In this document: positions 20,790 through 23,841 of the stretch, piece by piece
Layout: each line of letters opens with the position of its first letter
How positions within the stretch are numbered: position 1 is the first letter of the stretch
NCBI RefSeq assembly: GCF_037991315.1
Contig: NZ_CP150300.1
Span: 4,092,001 to 4,156,000 of the forward strand
Source of the DNA: Paenibacillus sp. FSL H8-0079
Lineage (GTDB): Bacteria > Bacillota > Bacilli > Paenibacillales > Paenibacillaceae
DNA: 64,000 bases
Direction of reading: 5' to 3'
The notes under the pieces: model-generated
The model's input: the letters and a program-made list of their open reading frames with translations, nothing else
Databases searched by the model: none
Told to the model about the DNA's origin: nothing
Program-made: the position numbers and the translations under genes

Positions 20790-21428
20790 CTATGCACGCG
20801 CACCTTGTTGTTTACGTTTATTCGTTGTTCGATGCATACGTCCAAGAGAAAATAAAGCCATCCCTATTGCTAGTAAAGACAGGGCCATCCAATACTGAGG
20901 ATAAGCAGGTCCCATGCTCACAACAAAAGGTTCAATGATGCTTCCTCTGTCCGCTCCAGTCATGTTGTACTGATACAATCCAGAAGACGATGGTCCGCTT
21001 CCGGCAACCCCTGTCTCCAGAATCCCCGTAGCAACAACCTTGGTTTGCTCAGCTTCTGATACGTTTGGCTTGAACAATGCCATGTACAGAAAGCTGCATA
21101 AAAAAATAGCCAGGAACGCGGCAATCCACAAAGACATATGTTTGCGGATCGCAGCAGAGAAACGATTAACCTTTGCCTCTTCCGGCAATAACCATGGAGA
21201 CTCCGCATAGATCCGGTCCATAACGTTACGGTTCACTCTCTCTGCCTGTTGTTCTGTCACTGGAACCGGGATGCTGTGCAGCAAGATCTGGGCTTCTTCC
21301 CAAACCTCAAACTGCTCGGAGCACTCTTCACAACCAGCAAGATGAGCATGAAATGCAATCCGCTGAGGATGAGCTTCCGGCAAGTCCCAGACCAGTGCAA
21401 ACAGTTCCTGGGCATCATTGCAATTCAT
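20790..21428 (-). CDS. Zinc-finger anti-sigma factor
   Basis: A 212-residue protein with an N-terminal zf-HC2 (ZAS) domain, shown by HAHLAGCEEC (H-x3-C-x2-C pattern with an N-terminal Cys/His), followed by two membrane segments (about residues 97-117 and 178-197) and an extracytoplasmic part between them. Such proteins bind and hold their partner ECF sigma factor at the membrane. The start overlaps the sigma gene by 4 bp (ATGA), the classic coupled arrangement. The inducing signal is unknown. Confidence 0.88.
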   Translation of the reverse strand: MNCNDAQELFALVWDLPEAHPQRIAFHAHLAGCEECSEQFEVWEEAQILLHSIPVPVTEQQAERVNRNVMDRIYAESPWLLPEEAKVNRFSAAIRKHMSLWIAAFLAIFLCSFLYMALFKPNVSEAEQTKVVATGILETGVAGSGPSSSGLYQYNMTGADRGSIIEPFVVSMGPAYPQYWMALSLLAIGMALFSLGRMHRTTNKRKQQGARA

Positions 21429-22018
21429 CGGTTCTTCATCCCTTCATATGGCTCGTACACCGGTTCGAAGAAATAAGGTTCCAATTGAGTTTTTACGCTT
21501 GATCTTGCTCTGAATAATAACGATTTCACAGAACTGACGCTCTGCCCAAGAATATTCGCAATCTCTTGGTAGTCTAGTTGATCATACTCGCGGAGTATAA
21601 TCGCAGAACGCTGCTTCTCCGGCAAATTGTTAATCGCATCTCTAACCAGCATCACCCGCTCGCTGCGTAGAACAGCATACTCCGGTGCATTCTCCGAAGG
21701 AGCCACGGGAACGATCCCGCTCTCTTCAAGTGGAACATTTCCACTGCGCTGTTTGCGAAGCTCACTCAGTACCGTATTTCTCGCAATGGTATATAACCAG
21801 GTTGAGAATGAGGCATCCACCTCACGGAAAGAGTGCAGACTGCGGAACGCCTTATAGAAAGTCTCAGAACAGAGATCTTCCGCAAGCAGCTCCATATTGG
21901 AACTTTTCAACATATGATATACGAAAGCCAGTATTTTACGCTGATAACGACTCATCAGCTCGGAATATAACTCCAGGTTACCTTCCTTGATCTCTCGAAT
22001 CAACTGGGAATCCGTCAT
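21425..22018 (-). CDS. ECF RNA polymerase sigma factor
   Basis: A 197-residue extracytoplasmic-function sigma factor. Region 2 spans about residues 20-90 (LYSELMSRYQRKILAFVYHM ... SFSTWLYTIARNTVL). Region 4 spans about 130-180 (LPEKQRSAIILREYDQLDYQ, EIANILGQSVSSVKSLLFRA). I chose the ATG at 22018, preceded by GAGGAGGGG; the frame extends upstream to 22075 without conservation. It pairs with the membrane anti-sigma factor downstream. An upstream promoter of SigX type (TGTAAC-N17-CGTC) suggests autoregulation. Confidence 0.92.
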   Translation of the reverse strand: MTDSQLIREIKEGNLELYSELMSRYQRKILAFVYHMLKSSNMELLAEDLCSETFYKAFRSLHSFREVDASFSTWLYTIARNTVLSELRKQRSGNVPLEESGIVPVAPSENAPEYAVLRSERVMLVRDAINNLPEKQRSAIILREYDQLDYQEIANILGQSVSSVKSLLFRARSSVKTQLEPYFFEPVYEPYEGMKNR

Positions 22019-22101
22019 TTGAGTGCGACCCCTCCTCGCCCATCCATGTGCTTCTCCCCGTTCGACTCTATCCATGTATTACCGAACAGGCACAAAAAAG
22101 T

Positions 22102-22117: not shown

Positions 22118-22338
22118 TATAAAAAGCGTTCAGCGCCATAACTGGCCTTCCCGCCAAATTCCCCTATGTAATGGCAATTTCCCCAACGTTTCTACATTAA
22201 CAGTATTTATTGTACAACGGTCTGCATCATCCTGGCAAATCCATTGCTATCCACAAAAACCCGACCTGTCATTCATATGCAGTGTTTTTCACGTTCATGA
22301 CTTCATTTTGAGCCTTTTTGGTAAGCCTTGTTTATATA

Positions 22339-22365
22339 GACGAACGAAATTCTGAAAAGGTTACA
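22339..22365 (-). promoter_or_regulatory. ECF-type promoter of the sigma/anti-sigma operon
   Basis: Minus strand TGTAAC (22360-22365), 17-bp spacer, CGTC (22339-22342). This matches the -35/-10 pattern of B. subtilis SigX-type promoters (TGTAAC-N17-CGAC). It lies about 315 bp upstream of the sigma gene, on the same strand, so the sigma factor may activate itself. The 22019-22338 interval contains no convincing gene. Confidence 0.6.
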
Positions 22366-22488
22366 AAAATGTGATATTTTTTTGATCTAAGGTATCCTAA
22401 CAGATTAAGGAGGGTAATGTAAATAGAGGATGTAATAAGAAGTGTAAATCTTAACATACCGGTAAAGGACCAATAACTTTTTAAAGAC

Positions 22489-22573
22489 AAAAAAAAGACC
22501 GCTTACATAAGCGGCCATTGCTCACGTGGAGCAATACAGTTATTGGATAGGAGTGGAGAGAAACCATACTGTA
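22489..22573 (-). ncRNA. Candidate small RNA (about 85 nt)
   Basis: A self-contained minus-strand transcription unit between tyrA and the ECF sigma gene. A consensus sigma-A promoter (next entry) would start transcription at about 22572. The RNA folds by eye into three hairpins: TACAGT-A-TGG pairing with CCA-ATA-ACTGTA around a loop TTTCTCTCCACTCCTAT; TTGCTC-CACGT-GAGCAA; and the terminator GGCCGCTT-ATGT-AAGCGGTC followed by eight T. The first loop is pyrimidine-rich with two CTCC words, complementary to Shine-Dalgarno sequences, as in several trans-acting Gram-positive small RNAs. No open reading frame with a ribosome site fits. I cannot assign a known RNA family. Confidence 0.65.
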
Positions 22574-22578
22574 CCCTT

Positions 22579-22607
22579 ATTATATGTATACGTTTTCATT
22601 TTGTCAA
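22579..22607 (-). promoter_or_regulatory. Consensus sigma-A promoter of the candidate small RNA
   Basis: Minus strand TTGACA (22602-22607), 17-bp spacer, TATAAT (22579-22584): a perfect match in both hexamers and spacing, the best vegetative promoter in the window. The only thing between it and the terminator at 22489-22516 is the 85-nt candidate RNA. Confidence 0.75.
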
Positions 22608-22713
22608 CACCTTAAGTAAAATTGTTTAAGTTAATTACATCTTTCGGTAATTCAGGATAATACATCCTTTTTTTCCTGAGTGAGAATCAAATGAAAAACT
22701 CCATTATAAGTTC

Positions 22714-22740
22714 AAAAAAAAGAGGGCTTGCGCCCTCTTT
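22714..22740 (-). terminator. Intrinsic terminator after tyrA
   Basis: Minus-strand stem AAGAGGGC-GCAA-GCCCTCTT followed by a T run, seven bases past the tyrA stop. It likely ends the trp-hisC-tyrA transcript. Confidence 0.88.
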
Positions 22741-22746
22741 CTCATC

Positions 22747-23841
22747 TTATATCCACACCTGATAGCCTAAGGAATCCAATAACGTCTTGGCTCGTTCCAT
22801 ATCTTCTTCCTGACGGAAGGACAGACGCATAATGCCTGGCACATCCACCCGGTTCTCGATAATCTCCAAGTTGCTCAAGTTGATGTCATTGGCCCCAAGC
22901 TCAGTTGCGATCTTACCAATCATACCGGGCGCATCCTGGACATCGGTATACAGATCAAATAACGGCGAAATCATGCCTTTGCGTCGTTCTGGCAATACAC
23001 TGCGGAACTCGCGGGCCTGACGGAATGCTTCCTCAATGCCTTCACCATTCTTATGCTCCAGCATATCCGTGAAGGCCGTCATTTGGCTATTCCAGTCCTT
23101 AAGCAAGCCCAGCAGTACATCACGGTTGCTAAGCAAGATATCTCTCCAGACTATGGCGTCACTGGATGCAATCCGGGTGATATCCCGGAAACCACCTGCA
23201 GCCAGCATTTTATACAGTGGATTCGACTCATTATATTCACGCACCTGATTTACCAACGCAACAGCAATAACATGTGGCAGATGACTAATCGCCCCCACAA
23301 TGTCATCGTGCAGCAAAGGCTCCACACGTACGATCTGTGCACGCGTATATGCAAGCAGCTCAGACAACCTGCTGTACGCTTCCTCAGGCACATGTTCTGA
23401 AGGGGTTAAGACGTAGTATGCATTCTCAAACAACACGGCTGAGGCCGCGTCTACGCCTGCACGCTCCGATCCTGCCATAGGATGACCACCGATGAAGTAA
23501 GCGTCGGTCAACCGCACATGCTCGGCACAAGCGGCAATGGAAGCCTTAGTGCTTCCTACGTCCGTGATAATACATCCTTTTTTCAATGGCAGCTTGGAGA
23601 GCTGCTCGAAATAGGATTCAAGCAAACCTACGGGAACGCACAAAAAAATAAAGTCGGCATCCTCTACCGCTTCTTCCAGAGAGAGCGTAGCATCATCCAC
23701 TACACCACTCGCTATGTACTTGTCCTTCAGTTCATCCAAGTGGGCGTAGCCCATCACGGTTACACCTGGCTTGCCTTTGAAGCAGAGCGCAAGTGAACCG
23801 CCGATGAGTCCTACACCGATCATTGCAATTTTTAGTTTCAT
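22747..23841 (-). CDS. tyrA: Prephenate dehydrogenase
   Basis: A 364-residue enzyme oxidising prephenate to 4-hydroxyphenylpyruvate with NAD. The Rossmann motif IGVGLIGGSLAL is at the N-terminus, GGHPMAGSERAG near residue 120 marks the prephenate site, and residues about 290-364 form an ACT domain (DAPGMIGKIATELGANDINL), suggesting allosteric control by an aromatic amino acid. It follows hisC by 26 bp and precedes a strong terminator, closing the aromatic supra-operon. Confidence 0.95.
   Translation of the reverse strand: MKLKIAMIGVGLIGGSLALCFKGKPGVTVMGYAHLDELKDKYIASGVVDDATLSLEEAVEDADFIFLCVPVGLLESYFEQLSKLPLKKGCIITDVGSTKASIAACAEHVRLTDAYFIGGHPMAGSERAGVDAASAVLFENAYYVLTPSEHVPEEAYSRLSELLAYTRAQIVRVEPLLHDDIVGAISHLPHVIAVALVNQVREYNESNPLYKMLAAGGFRDITRIASSDAIVWRDILLSNRDVLLGLLKDWNSQMTAFTDMLEHKNGEGIEEAFRQAREFRSVLPERRKGMISPLFDLYTDVQDAPGMIGKIATELGANDINLSNLEIIENRVDVPGIMRLSFRQEEDMERAKTLLDSLGYQVWI

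Follow-up and report, generated by a model that had tools for sequence, protein, structure and literature searches.

Stand-alone small RNAs (sRNAs) that are repressed by CcpA have precedents in RsaI (RsaOG) of Staphylococcus aureus (PMC9266662) and RosA of Bacillus subtilis (PMC8216469). RsaI is described as an sRNA that carries a C-rich region and is repressed by CcpA with glucose (PMC9266662, PMC8216469), that pairs with the Shine-Dalgarno (SD) sequences of glcU_2 and fn3K (PMC9266662) and whose terminator is among those near which CcpA crosslinks to RNA (PMC9130240). According to the account in PMC8464778, only five trans-encoded sRNAs with identified targets were known in B. subtilis by 2021, and the RNA-seq report on Paenibacillus riograndensis SBR5 mentions 27 intergenic small RNAs, only 3 of them with an assigned function (PMC5670726). 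The present analysis concerns a short unit on the minus strand of a 64,000-nucleotide (nt) stretch of the genome of Paenibacillus sp. FSL H8-0079 (contig NZ_CP150300.1, positions 4,092,001 to 4,156,000; hereafter the window). This unit probably encodes a CcpA-repressed, trans-acting sRNA with an anti-SD tail, RsaI-like in action and conserved across much of Bacilli. Its transcript may already stand unnamed among the small RNAs of P. riograndensis SBR5.

The unit (Table 1) is located between tyrA (22747-23841) and a gene encoding an extracytoplasmic function (ECF) sigma factor (21425-22075), both names being assigned from sequence. The TTGACA-N17-TATAAT promoter that a preliminary description had placed there on the minus strand is found exactly at its coordinates, with a 12/12 match, and is the sole 12/12 promoter (spacer of 16–18 nt) on both strands of the 64 kb window. 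The same description had claimed about 85 nt followed by a terminator, in agreement with an RNA of about 84 nt that would start at about 22572 and end in an intrinsic terminator (22516-22489, a hairpin at 22516-22497 and eight T), and its two CTCC words are present (CTCTCCACTCC). It had also called the unit an orphan, which proved wrong: a DNA search found the unit in 59/59 genomes (own genome included) from 17 genera, and the covariance search over relatives that had been proposed as a check matched 244/246 genomes of the order Paenibacillales, the two misses being a 1.4 Mb genome and one that is 81% complete. The model used (R2) comprises two helices and was built from an alignment (A1) of 38 of the 39 distinct RNAs of the order, which omits one RNA (L023) nearly equal to another (L022). 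It also matched 152/299 genomes of the class (27 of them from the own family, leaving 125/272) and 10/398 genomes of the phylum, of which 7 belong to the own family; the 3 matches outside the class are weak and have no core. Two of the matches within the class (L150 and L151), weak and without core, were likewise attributed to chance.

What is conserved across the order is the promoter with the greater part of its spacer and the initial 27–28 nt of the RNA, the remainder being variable in sequence. The CU-rich core contained in this part, GGUUUCUCUCCACUCCUAUC, is nearly unchanged across relatives, as had been expected of the loop: it is exact in 57/59 loci of the order, in 33/37 loci of other families of the class and in 79/80 loci from named genomes, the last having been retrieved with an 18-mer inside the core. 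These three sets overlap (e.g. L240/G008, L206/G028 and L180/G525), and the 59 loci of the order include near-identical genomes, so that their rows are not independent. The class set counts 37 of 40 loci, L148, L150 and L151 being without core by the search pattern (L148 has a shorter core), whereas the named set (L163-L242) consists of the 80 stretches examined among at least 118 found by the 18-mer scan. Among the matches listed, the 18-mer occurs in Paenibacillus, Cohnella, Brevibacillus, Aneurinibacillus, Ammoniphilus, Shouchella, Halalkalibacter, Alkalihalobacillus, Pseudalkalibacillus, Fictibacillus, Marinococcus, Alteribacillus, Geomicrobium, Caldalkalibacillus, Melghirimyces, Thermoactinomyces and others. 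It is also present in a record titled Thermoplasmata archaeon (L222), still counted among the 80, which scores only 8 for the operator discussed below, has no T run in 110 nt and was judged a chance match. The exact 16-mer TTTCTCTCCACTCCTA was found in 143/299 class genomes (61/118 genera), and its reversed control gave 0 hits among the class matches listed. Upstream of the core, a loose promoter pattern occurs in 59/59 order, 35/37 class and 78/80 named loci, and a run of at least five T follows the core in 59/59, 37/37 and 79/80. No remnant of the unit was found after the gene that, by its sequence, we take to be aroA in the 21 of 22 class genomes without match that were covered there (all but L512); a candidate remnant at the aroA locus of L519 (best match E 0.011), with its core-like part inside the aroA frame, was ascribed to chance. 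Taken as a whole, the conservation of the unit is far beyond chance and the sRNA gene is widespread: nearly every Paenibacillus relative searched has it, as do many Bacilli beyond these.

The RNA folds at -24.4 kcal/mol compared with -13.05 +/- 2.51 for shuffled sequences (z -4.5; 0/200 shuffles as low). According to the predicted structures, its CU-rich 5' part is mostly unpaired and is followed in most cases by a hairpin and then by the terminator, whose hairpin is apparently the only one in some outgroup RNAs. The mean unpaired probability of the core in 66 RNAs has a median of 0.87 (lowest 0.63; at least 0.8 in 44), and the unpaired pyrimidine-rich stretch with CUCC words that characterizes anti-SD sRNAs is thus present in these predictions. 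The three back-to-back hairpins initially described therefore stand only for the two on the 3' side, which are conserved and covary, including the compensatory changes that had been looked for; the CU-rich stretch, which had been drawn as the loop of the first, is mostly unpaired. This first hairpin was rejected as a conserved element, its stem (ACAGU/ACUGU) being complete in only part of the genus, with compensatory change in 0/6 pairs. In a model-aligned set of the 66 RNAs (A2), which were picked from loci already seen to carry the core and whose alignment leans to its structure, 12/12 pairs of the two 3' hairpins show changes on both sides, yet 72/500 shuffles equal that measure. The same alignment has 52 further pair types (0/500 shuffles have as many) and a covariation score of 0.766, compared with 0.202 when shuffled and at most 0.136 when the partners are slid. 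In the unfitted alignment A1, which places part of the genus in another register, the 3' helices also exceed shuffles in paired cells (80.0 vs 73.5%), in cells changed on both sides (36 vs 17.7) and in covariation score (0.304 vs 0.217, and at most 0.164 when slid).

The unit also moves apart from its neighbours. Both tyrA and the core were recovered in 102/109 loci of Paenibacillales, and in 27/102 of these the unit runs in the opposite direction to tyrA. On a tree of TyrA (97 rows, reduced to 91 by a length filter and removal of duplicates), 7 changes of orientation are required, 6 if well-supported branches alone are counted, and two rows have an identical TyrA with opposite orientations of the unit. 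The reversed block of about 280 bp, located between tyrA and the ECF sigma gene, takes the promoter and the terminator along. Its junctions have no clear inverted repeats by eye, no search aimed at recombinases having been made, and the block could represent a hot spot of recombination or a segment subject to phase variation. The neighbourhood as such is stable, tyrA or the presumed aroA occurring within the four closest frames in 25/37 loci of other families, and the genes downstream of the unit vary by family. Single genomes (L137, L139, L159 and L160) carry second, unlinked copies that keep the core and the terminator and whose closest frames include neither tyrA nor aroA. This reorientation and the second copies elsewhere fit a trans-acting RNA and speak strongly against a leader. 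With its own promoter, its own terminator, a conserved structure and its independence from neighbours, the unit is, by the computational tests made, a real RNA gene.

A feature missed by the preliminary description is a sequence in the promoter spacer, TGAAAACGTATACA, that resembles the catabolite-responsive element (cre) to which CcpA binds. Sites were scored against the cre consensus TGWAANCGNTNWCA, retaining the highest-scoring site between -60 and +100 relative to the core and a cut of at least 10/11. In PMC9130240, the consensus is given as WTGNNARCGNWWWCAW. The cut is reached in 56/59 order, 20/37 class and 61/80 named loci, against 1.3% (n=1337), 1.1% and 0.9%, respectively, of flank windows and 1.2%, 1.2% and 0.7% of single-base shuffles. 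The site lies within the promoter spacer in most loci of Paenibacillales and overlaps the -35 region in some loci. In Brevibacillus, Halalkalibacter okhensis, Alkalihalobacterium, Fictibacillus and others, it is found roughly 33 to 60 nt downstream of the start of the core, a region that corresponds by eye to the terminator hairpin. Since the site keeps its identity while changing place, regulation by CcpA is well supported, and control of the sRNA gene by CcpA is likely from these comparisons. Cre-like sites inside the terminator hairpin were observed in L154-L156, L158, L161, L162, L183, L189-L192, L203, L214, L227 and others, where one stretch may double as a CcpA operator and as the stem or loop of the terminator.

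Table 1. Features of the sRNA unit in the window
Feature	Positions	Strand	Basis
Sigma-A type promoter	22579..22607	-	12/12 consensus: TTGACA 22607-22602, 17-nt spacer, TATAAT 22584-22579
Small RNA, about 84 nt	22489..22572	-	Inferred ends: 5' from the -10 box, 3' from the terminator
CU-rich core GGUUUCUCUCCACUCCUAUC, 20 nt, predicted mostly unpaired	22546..22565	-	Complementary to Shine-Dalgarno words AGGAG and GGAGAG
Hairpin 2	22517..22535	-	5/5 counted pairs changed on both sides; 87.6% of cells paired (structure-fitted alignment)
Hairpin 3, stem of the intrinsic terminator	22497..22516	-	7/7 counted pairs changed on both sides; 93.2% of cells paired (structure-fitted alignment)
Terminator U tract	22489..22496	-	Eight T in the sequence
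Predicted cre-like CcpA operator TGAAAACGTATACA in the promoter spacer	22585..22598	-	10/11 scored positions of TGWAANCGNTNWCA
Approximate block inverted in some close relatives	22400..22685		BLAST of L001 against L002, L004, L008, L011 and others; junction sequences

Combined with these data, the following model can be drawn, in which we infer the expression of the RNA and its effects. In the presence of a preferred sugar, CcpA would bind the cre site, which occupies the promoter spacer here and elsewhere lies close to the -35 box or within the terminator hairpin, and would keep the sRNA gene off. Once the sugar is exhausted, the strong promoter would drive synthesis of an RNA about 60–100 nt long, in which the unpaired CU-rich 5' part is followed by a terminator, in most cases with a stabilising hairpin between them. 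Its CU-rich 20-mer would then pair with the SD regions of target mRNAs and lower their translation.

Since the core is complementary to SD words, ribosome binding sites are the obvious candidates for pairing, and an anti-SD action of the core is plausible on this ground; SD-type sites complementary to it exist in each of the 12 genomes searched. A single mRNA target bearing the 12-nt complement of the core was rejected: among the sites read outside the sRNA, no gene recurs across families, the sites being located in unrelated genes and mostly within coding sequences, and the sole 17-nt site of the own genome lies inside a frame. For sites of the type AGGAGTGGA-N-ATG, 110 of the 157 matches were examined, 90 of them with a frame of at least 40 amino acids. 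The clusters found among these span two genomes; by their sequences, we take them to be accB, carA, amt, an Asp23-like gene, glycosyltransferases and response regulators. Only aldehyde dehydrogenase paralogues reach three genomes, at a cut of E 1e-5, and two at E 1e-8. For GGAGAGAAA-N-ATG, 69 of 192 matches were examined (40 with a frame; genome label inferred for 4/69), and these sites join a response-regulator cluster (two genomes) and a pair of HAD phosphatases.

Several points weigh against a CcpA-repressed anti-SD sRNA. Among the SD-type sites examined (110/157 and 69/192), no orthologue recurs in three families, save the loosely cut aldehyde dehydrogenase paralogues, and the near invariance of 20 nt exceeds the needs of a short SD seed. 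No site of at least 10/11 was found in 17/37 class and 19/80 named loci, and Thermoactinomyces, Melghirimyces, both Aneurinibacillus and two Pseudalkalibacillus score just 7 or 8; this shortfall implies that control by CcpA is not universal. In the unfitted alignment A1, two of the five measures do not exceed shuffles, namely pairs changed on both sides (5 vs 5.3) and further pair types (17 vs 19.3). The invariance of the core would be accounted for if it were the binding site of one invariant partner, either an RNA-binding protein or one RNA, which the sRNA would titrate or guide. This explanation, to which we give a minor but appreciable chance, is in keeping with 20 nt that are near invariant across the class without a conserved mRNA target. 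A CcpA-controlled sponge RNA exists in RosA, as described in PMC8216469, and the crosslinking of CcpA near terminators, including that of RsaI, reported in PMC9130240, can be set beside the cre-like site so often located in the terminator here. It is opposed by the fact that the core is built of SD-complementary words and by pairing with rRNA, a possible RNA partner that was rejected as 24/40 shuffled cores pair equally well with one stretch of an own rRNA operon. To our knowledge, there is no candidate protein. In its broader form, which is likewise improbable without being negligible, the RNA would be ancient and class-wide, its core held by one invariant partner and its gene kept in the CcpA circuit while the operator moved between the spacer, the -35 region and the terminator hairpin. 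Where the operator lies in this hairpin, the target of CcpA could be the DNA of the terminator or the terminator as formed in the RNA, which would amount to a double control.

Explanations that dispense with a trans-acting RNA fare worse. It is very unlikely that the core is a DNA-level element just past the start site, such as the operator of a regulator, with the RNA as a by-product. The position of the core at about +8 to +27 would suit such an element, as would a word, AGTGGAGAGG, nearly complementary to part of the core, in the outgroup promoters L143 and L175. However, the core is not palindromic, a T run lies within 130 nt in 59/59 order and 37/37 class loci, and covarying hairpins precede this run in the aligned loci, an operator needing neither. 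In L143 and L175, the near complement of part of the own gene's core lies in the promoter spacer just before the -10 box (GGAGTGGAGAGG and CAGTGGAGAGG, respectively). A leader or attenuator that acts in cis on the ECF sigma gene, or a 3' end processed from tyrA, is suggested by the co-orientation of tyrA, the unit and the sigma gene in the window and by the recurrence of tyrA or aroA nearby in other families. It is nevertheless highly improbable: the unit possesses a promoter and a terminator of its own, about 410 nt separate it from the sigma gene, and its reversed orientation in many loci together with the changing genes that follow it largely refutes a leader of this gene. The least credible proposal is a short translated frame, AUG GUU UCU CUC CAC UCC UAU ..., yielding a peptide. 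An ATG does precede the core in 58/59 order, 25/37 class and 79/80 named loci, and its frame is open to the T run in 27/39 distinct RNAs of the order, but so are the remaining two frames in 22 and 18, and the ATG is absent from 12/37 class loci that keep the core. Moreover, the leader would be just 5 nt and AAAAG, rather than an SD sequence, precedes the ATG in most relatives. A peptide gene was thus rejected, and the early remark that no reading frame fits agrees with the lack of a supported frame.

Further upstream on the minus strand, past tyrA, AAAGAGGGCGCAAGCCCTCTTT followed by further T (22714-22740) forms a terminator-like hairpin ahead of the sRNA promoter; it is absent from the list produced by the pattern scan.

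If the CcpA-repressed anti-SD sRNA proposed here is real, an RNA whose 20-nt core is near-constant and which is found in 244/246 order genomes as well as in many Bacilli outside the order would be a core regulator, its family perhaps having been overlooked because the best-studied species may be without it. In Paenibacillus, Brevibacillus and alkaliphilic bacilli, carbon catabolite control would gain a post-transcriptional arm, and the RNA offers a direct test of the invariance of a core for which no conserved mRNA target appears.

Concerning known sRNAs, no Rfam family reached its gathering score in the window or in 12 outgroup loci, and a lax search of 22300-22750 gave nine matches with E values of 10 or less, none of them anywhere near its gathering score and all judged to be chance. 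The library searched presumably contains the RsaE/RoxS and RsaI/RsaOG families. The core sequence was not found in the text of the literature searched, and the titles and abstract starts of papers on CcpA or on sRNAs of Paenibacillus or Bacillales hold nothing tied to this RNA. Within these searches, it belongs to an undescribed sRNA family, so that the initial statement that no family was known for it holds, and membership in RsaE/RoxS or FsrA is not supported by Rfam. The C-rich regions by which RoxS/RsaE and FsrA are described to pair with mRNA targets (PMC8216469, PMC8464778) resemble the core. However, these sRNAs gave no Rfam match here, the core has no run of four C, and RoxS is reported to be controlled by ResDE and Rex and FsrA by Fur (PMC8216469, PMC8464778). 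SR1 of B. subtilis, with homologues in Bacillales, is described as an RNA of 205 nt that encodes a 39-amino-acid peptide (PMC8464778), compared with about 84 nt and no supported frame here, a contrast of descriptions and not of sequences. RosA is also stand-alone and CcpA-repressed, with a predicted CcpA site at -1 to +12, but in the account of PMC8216469 it is an RNA of about 229 nt, G-rich and without C-rich region, that acts as a sponge of RoxS and FsrA; G-rich single-stranded regions of this type were not found in the present RNA, whose unpaired part is CU-rich. RsaI differs in being absent from the Rfam matches of this unit up to E 10, in having G-rich regions for other sRNAs and in a conservation that PMC8216469 reports for Staphylococcus, not for Bacilli. 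The cre-like site at the gene that is expected of an RsaI-like, CcpA-repressed sRNA was found in 56/59 order and 20/37 other-family class loci, 17/37 being below the cut. By description, RsaI is nonetheless the nearest in behaviour, as a stand-alone, CcpA-repressed sRNA that pairs with SD sequences, and the binding of CcpA to its terminator, as reported in PMC9130240, recalls the cre-like sites found here in terminator hairpins.
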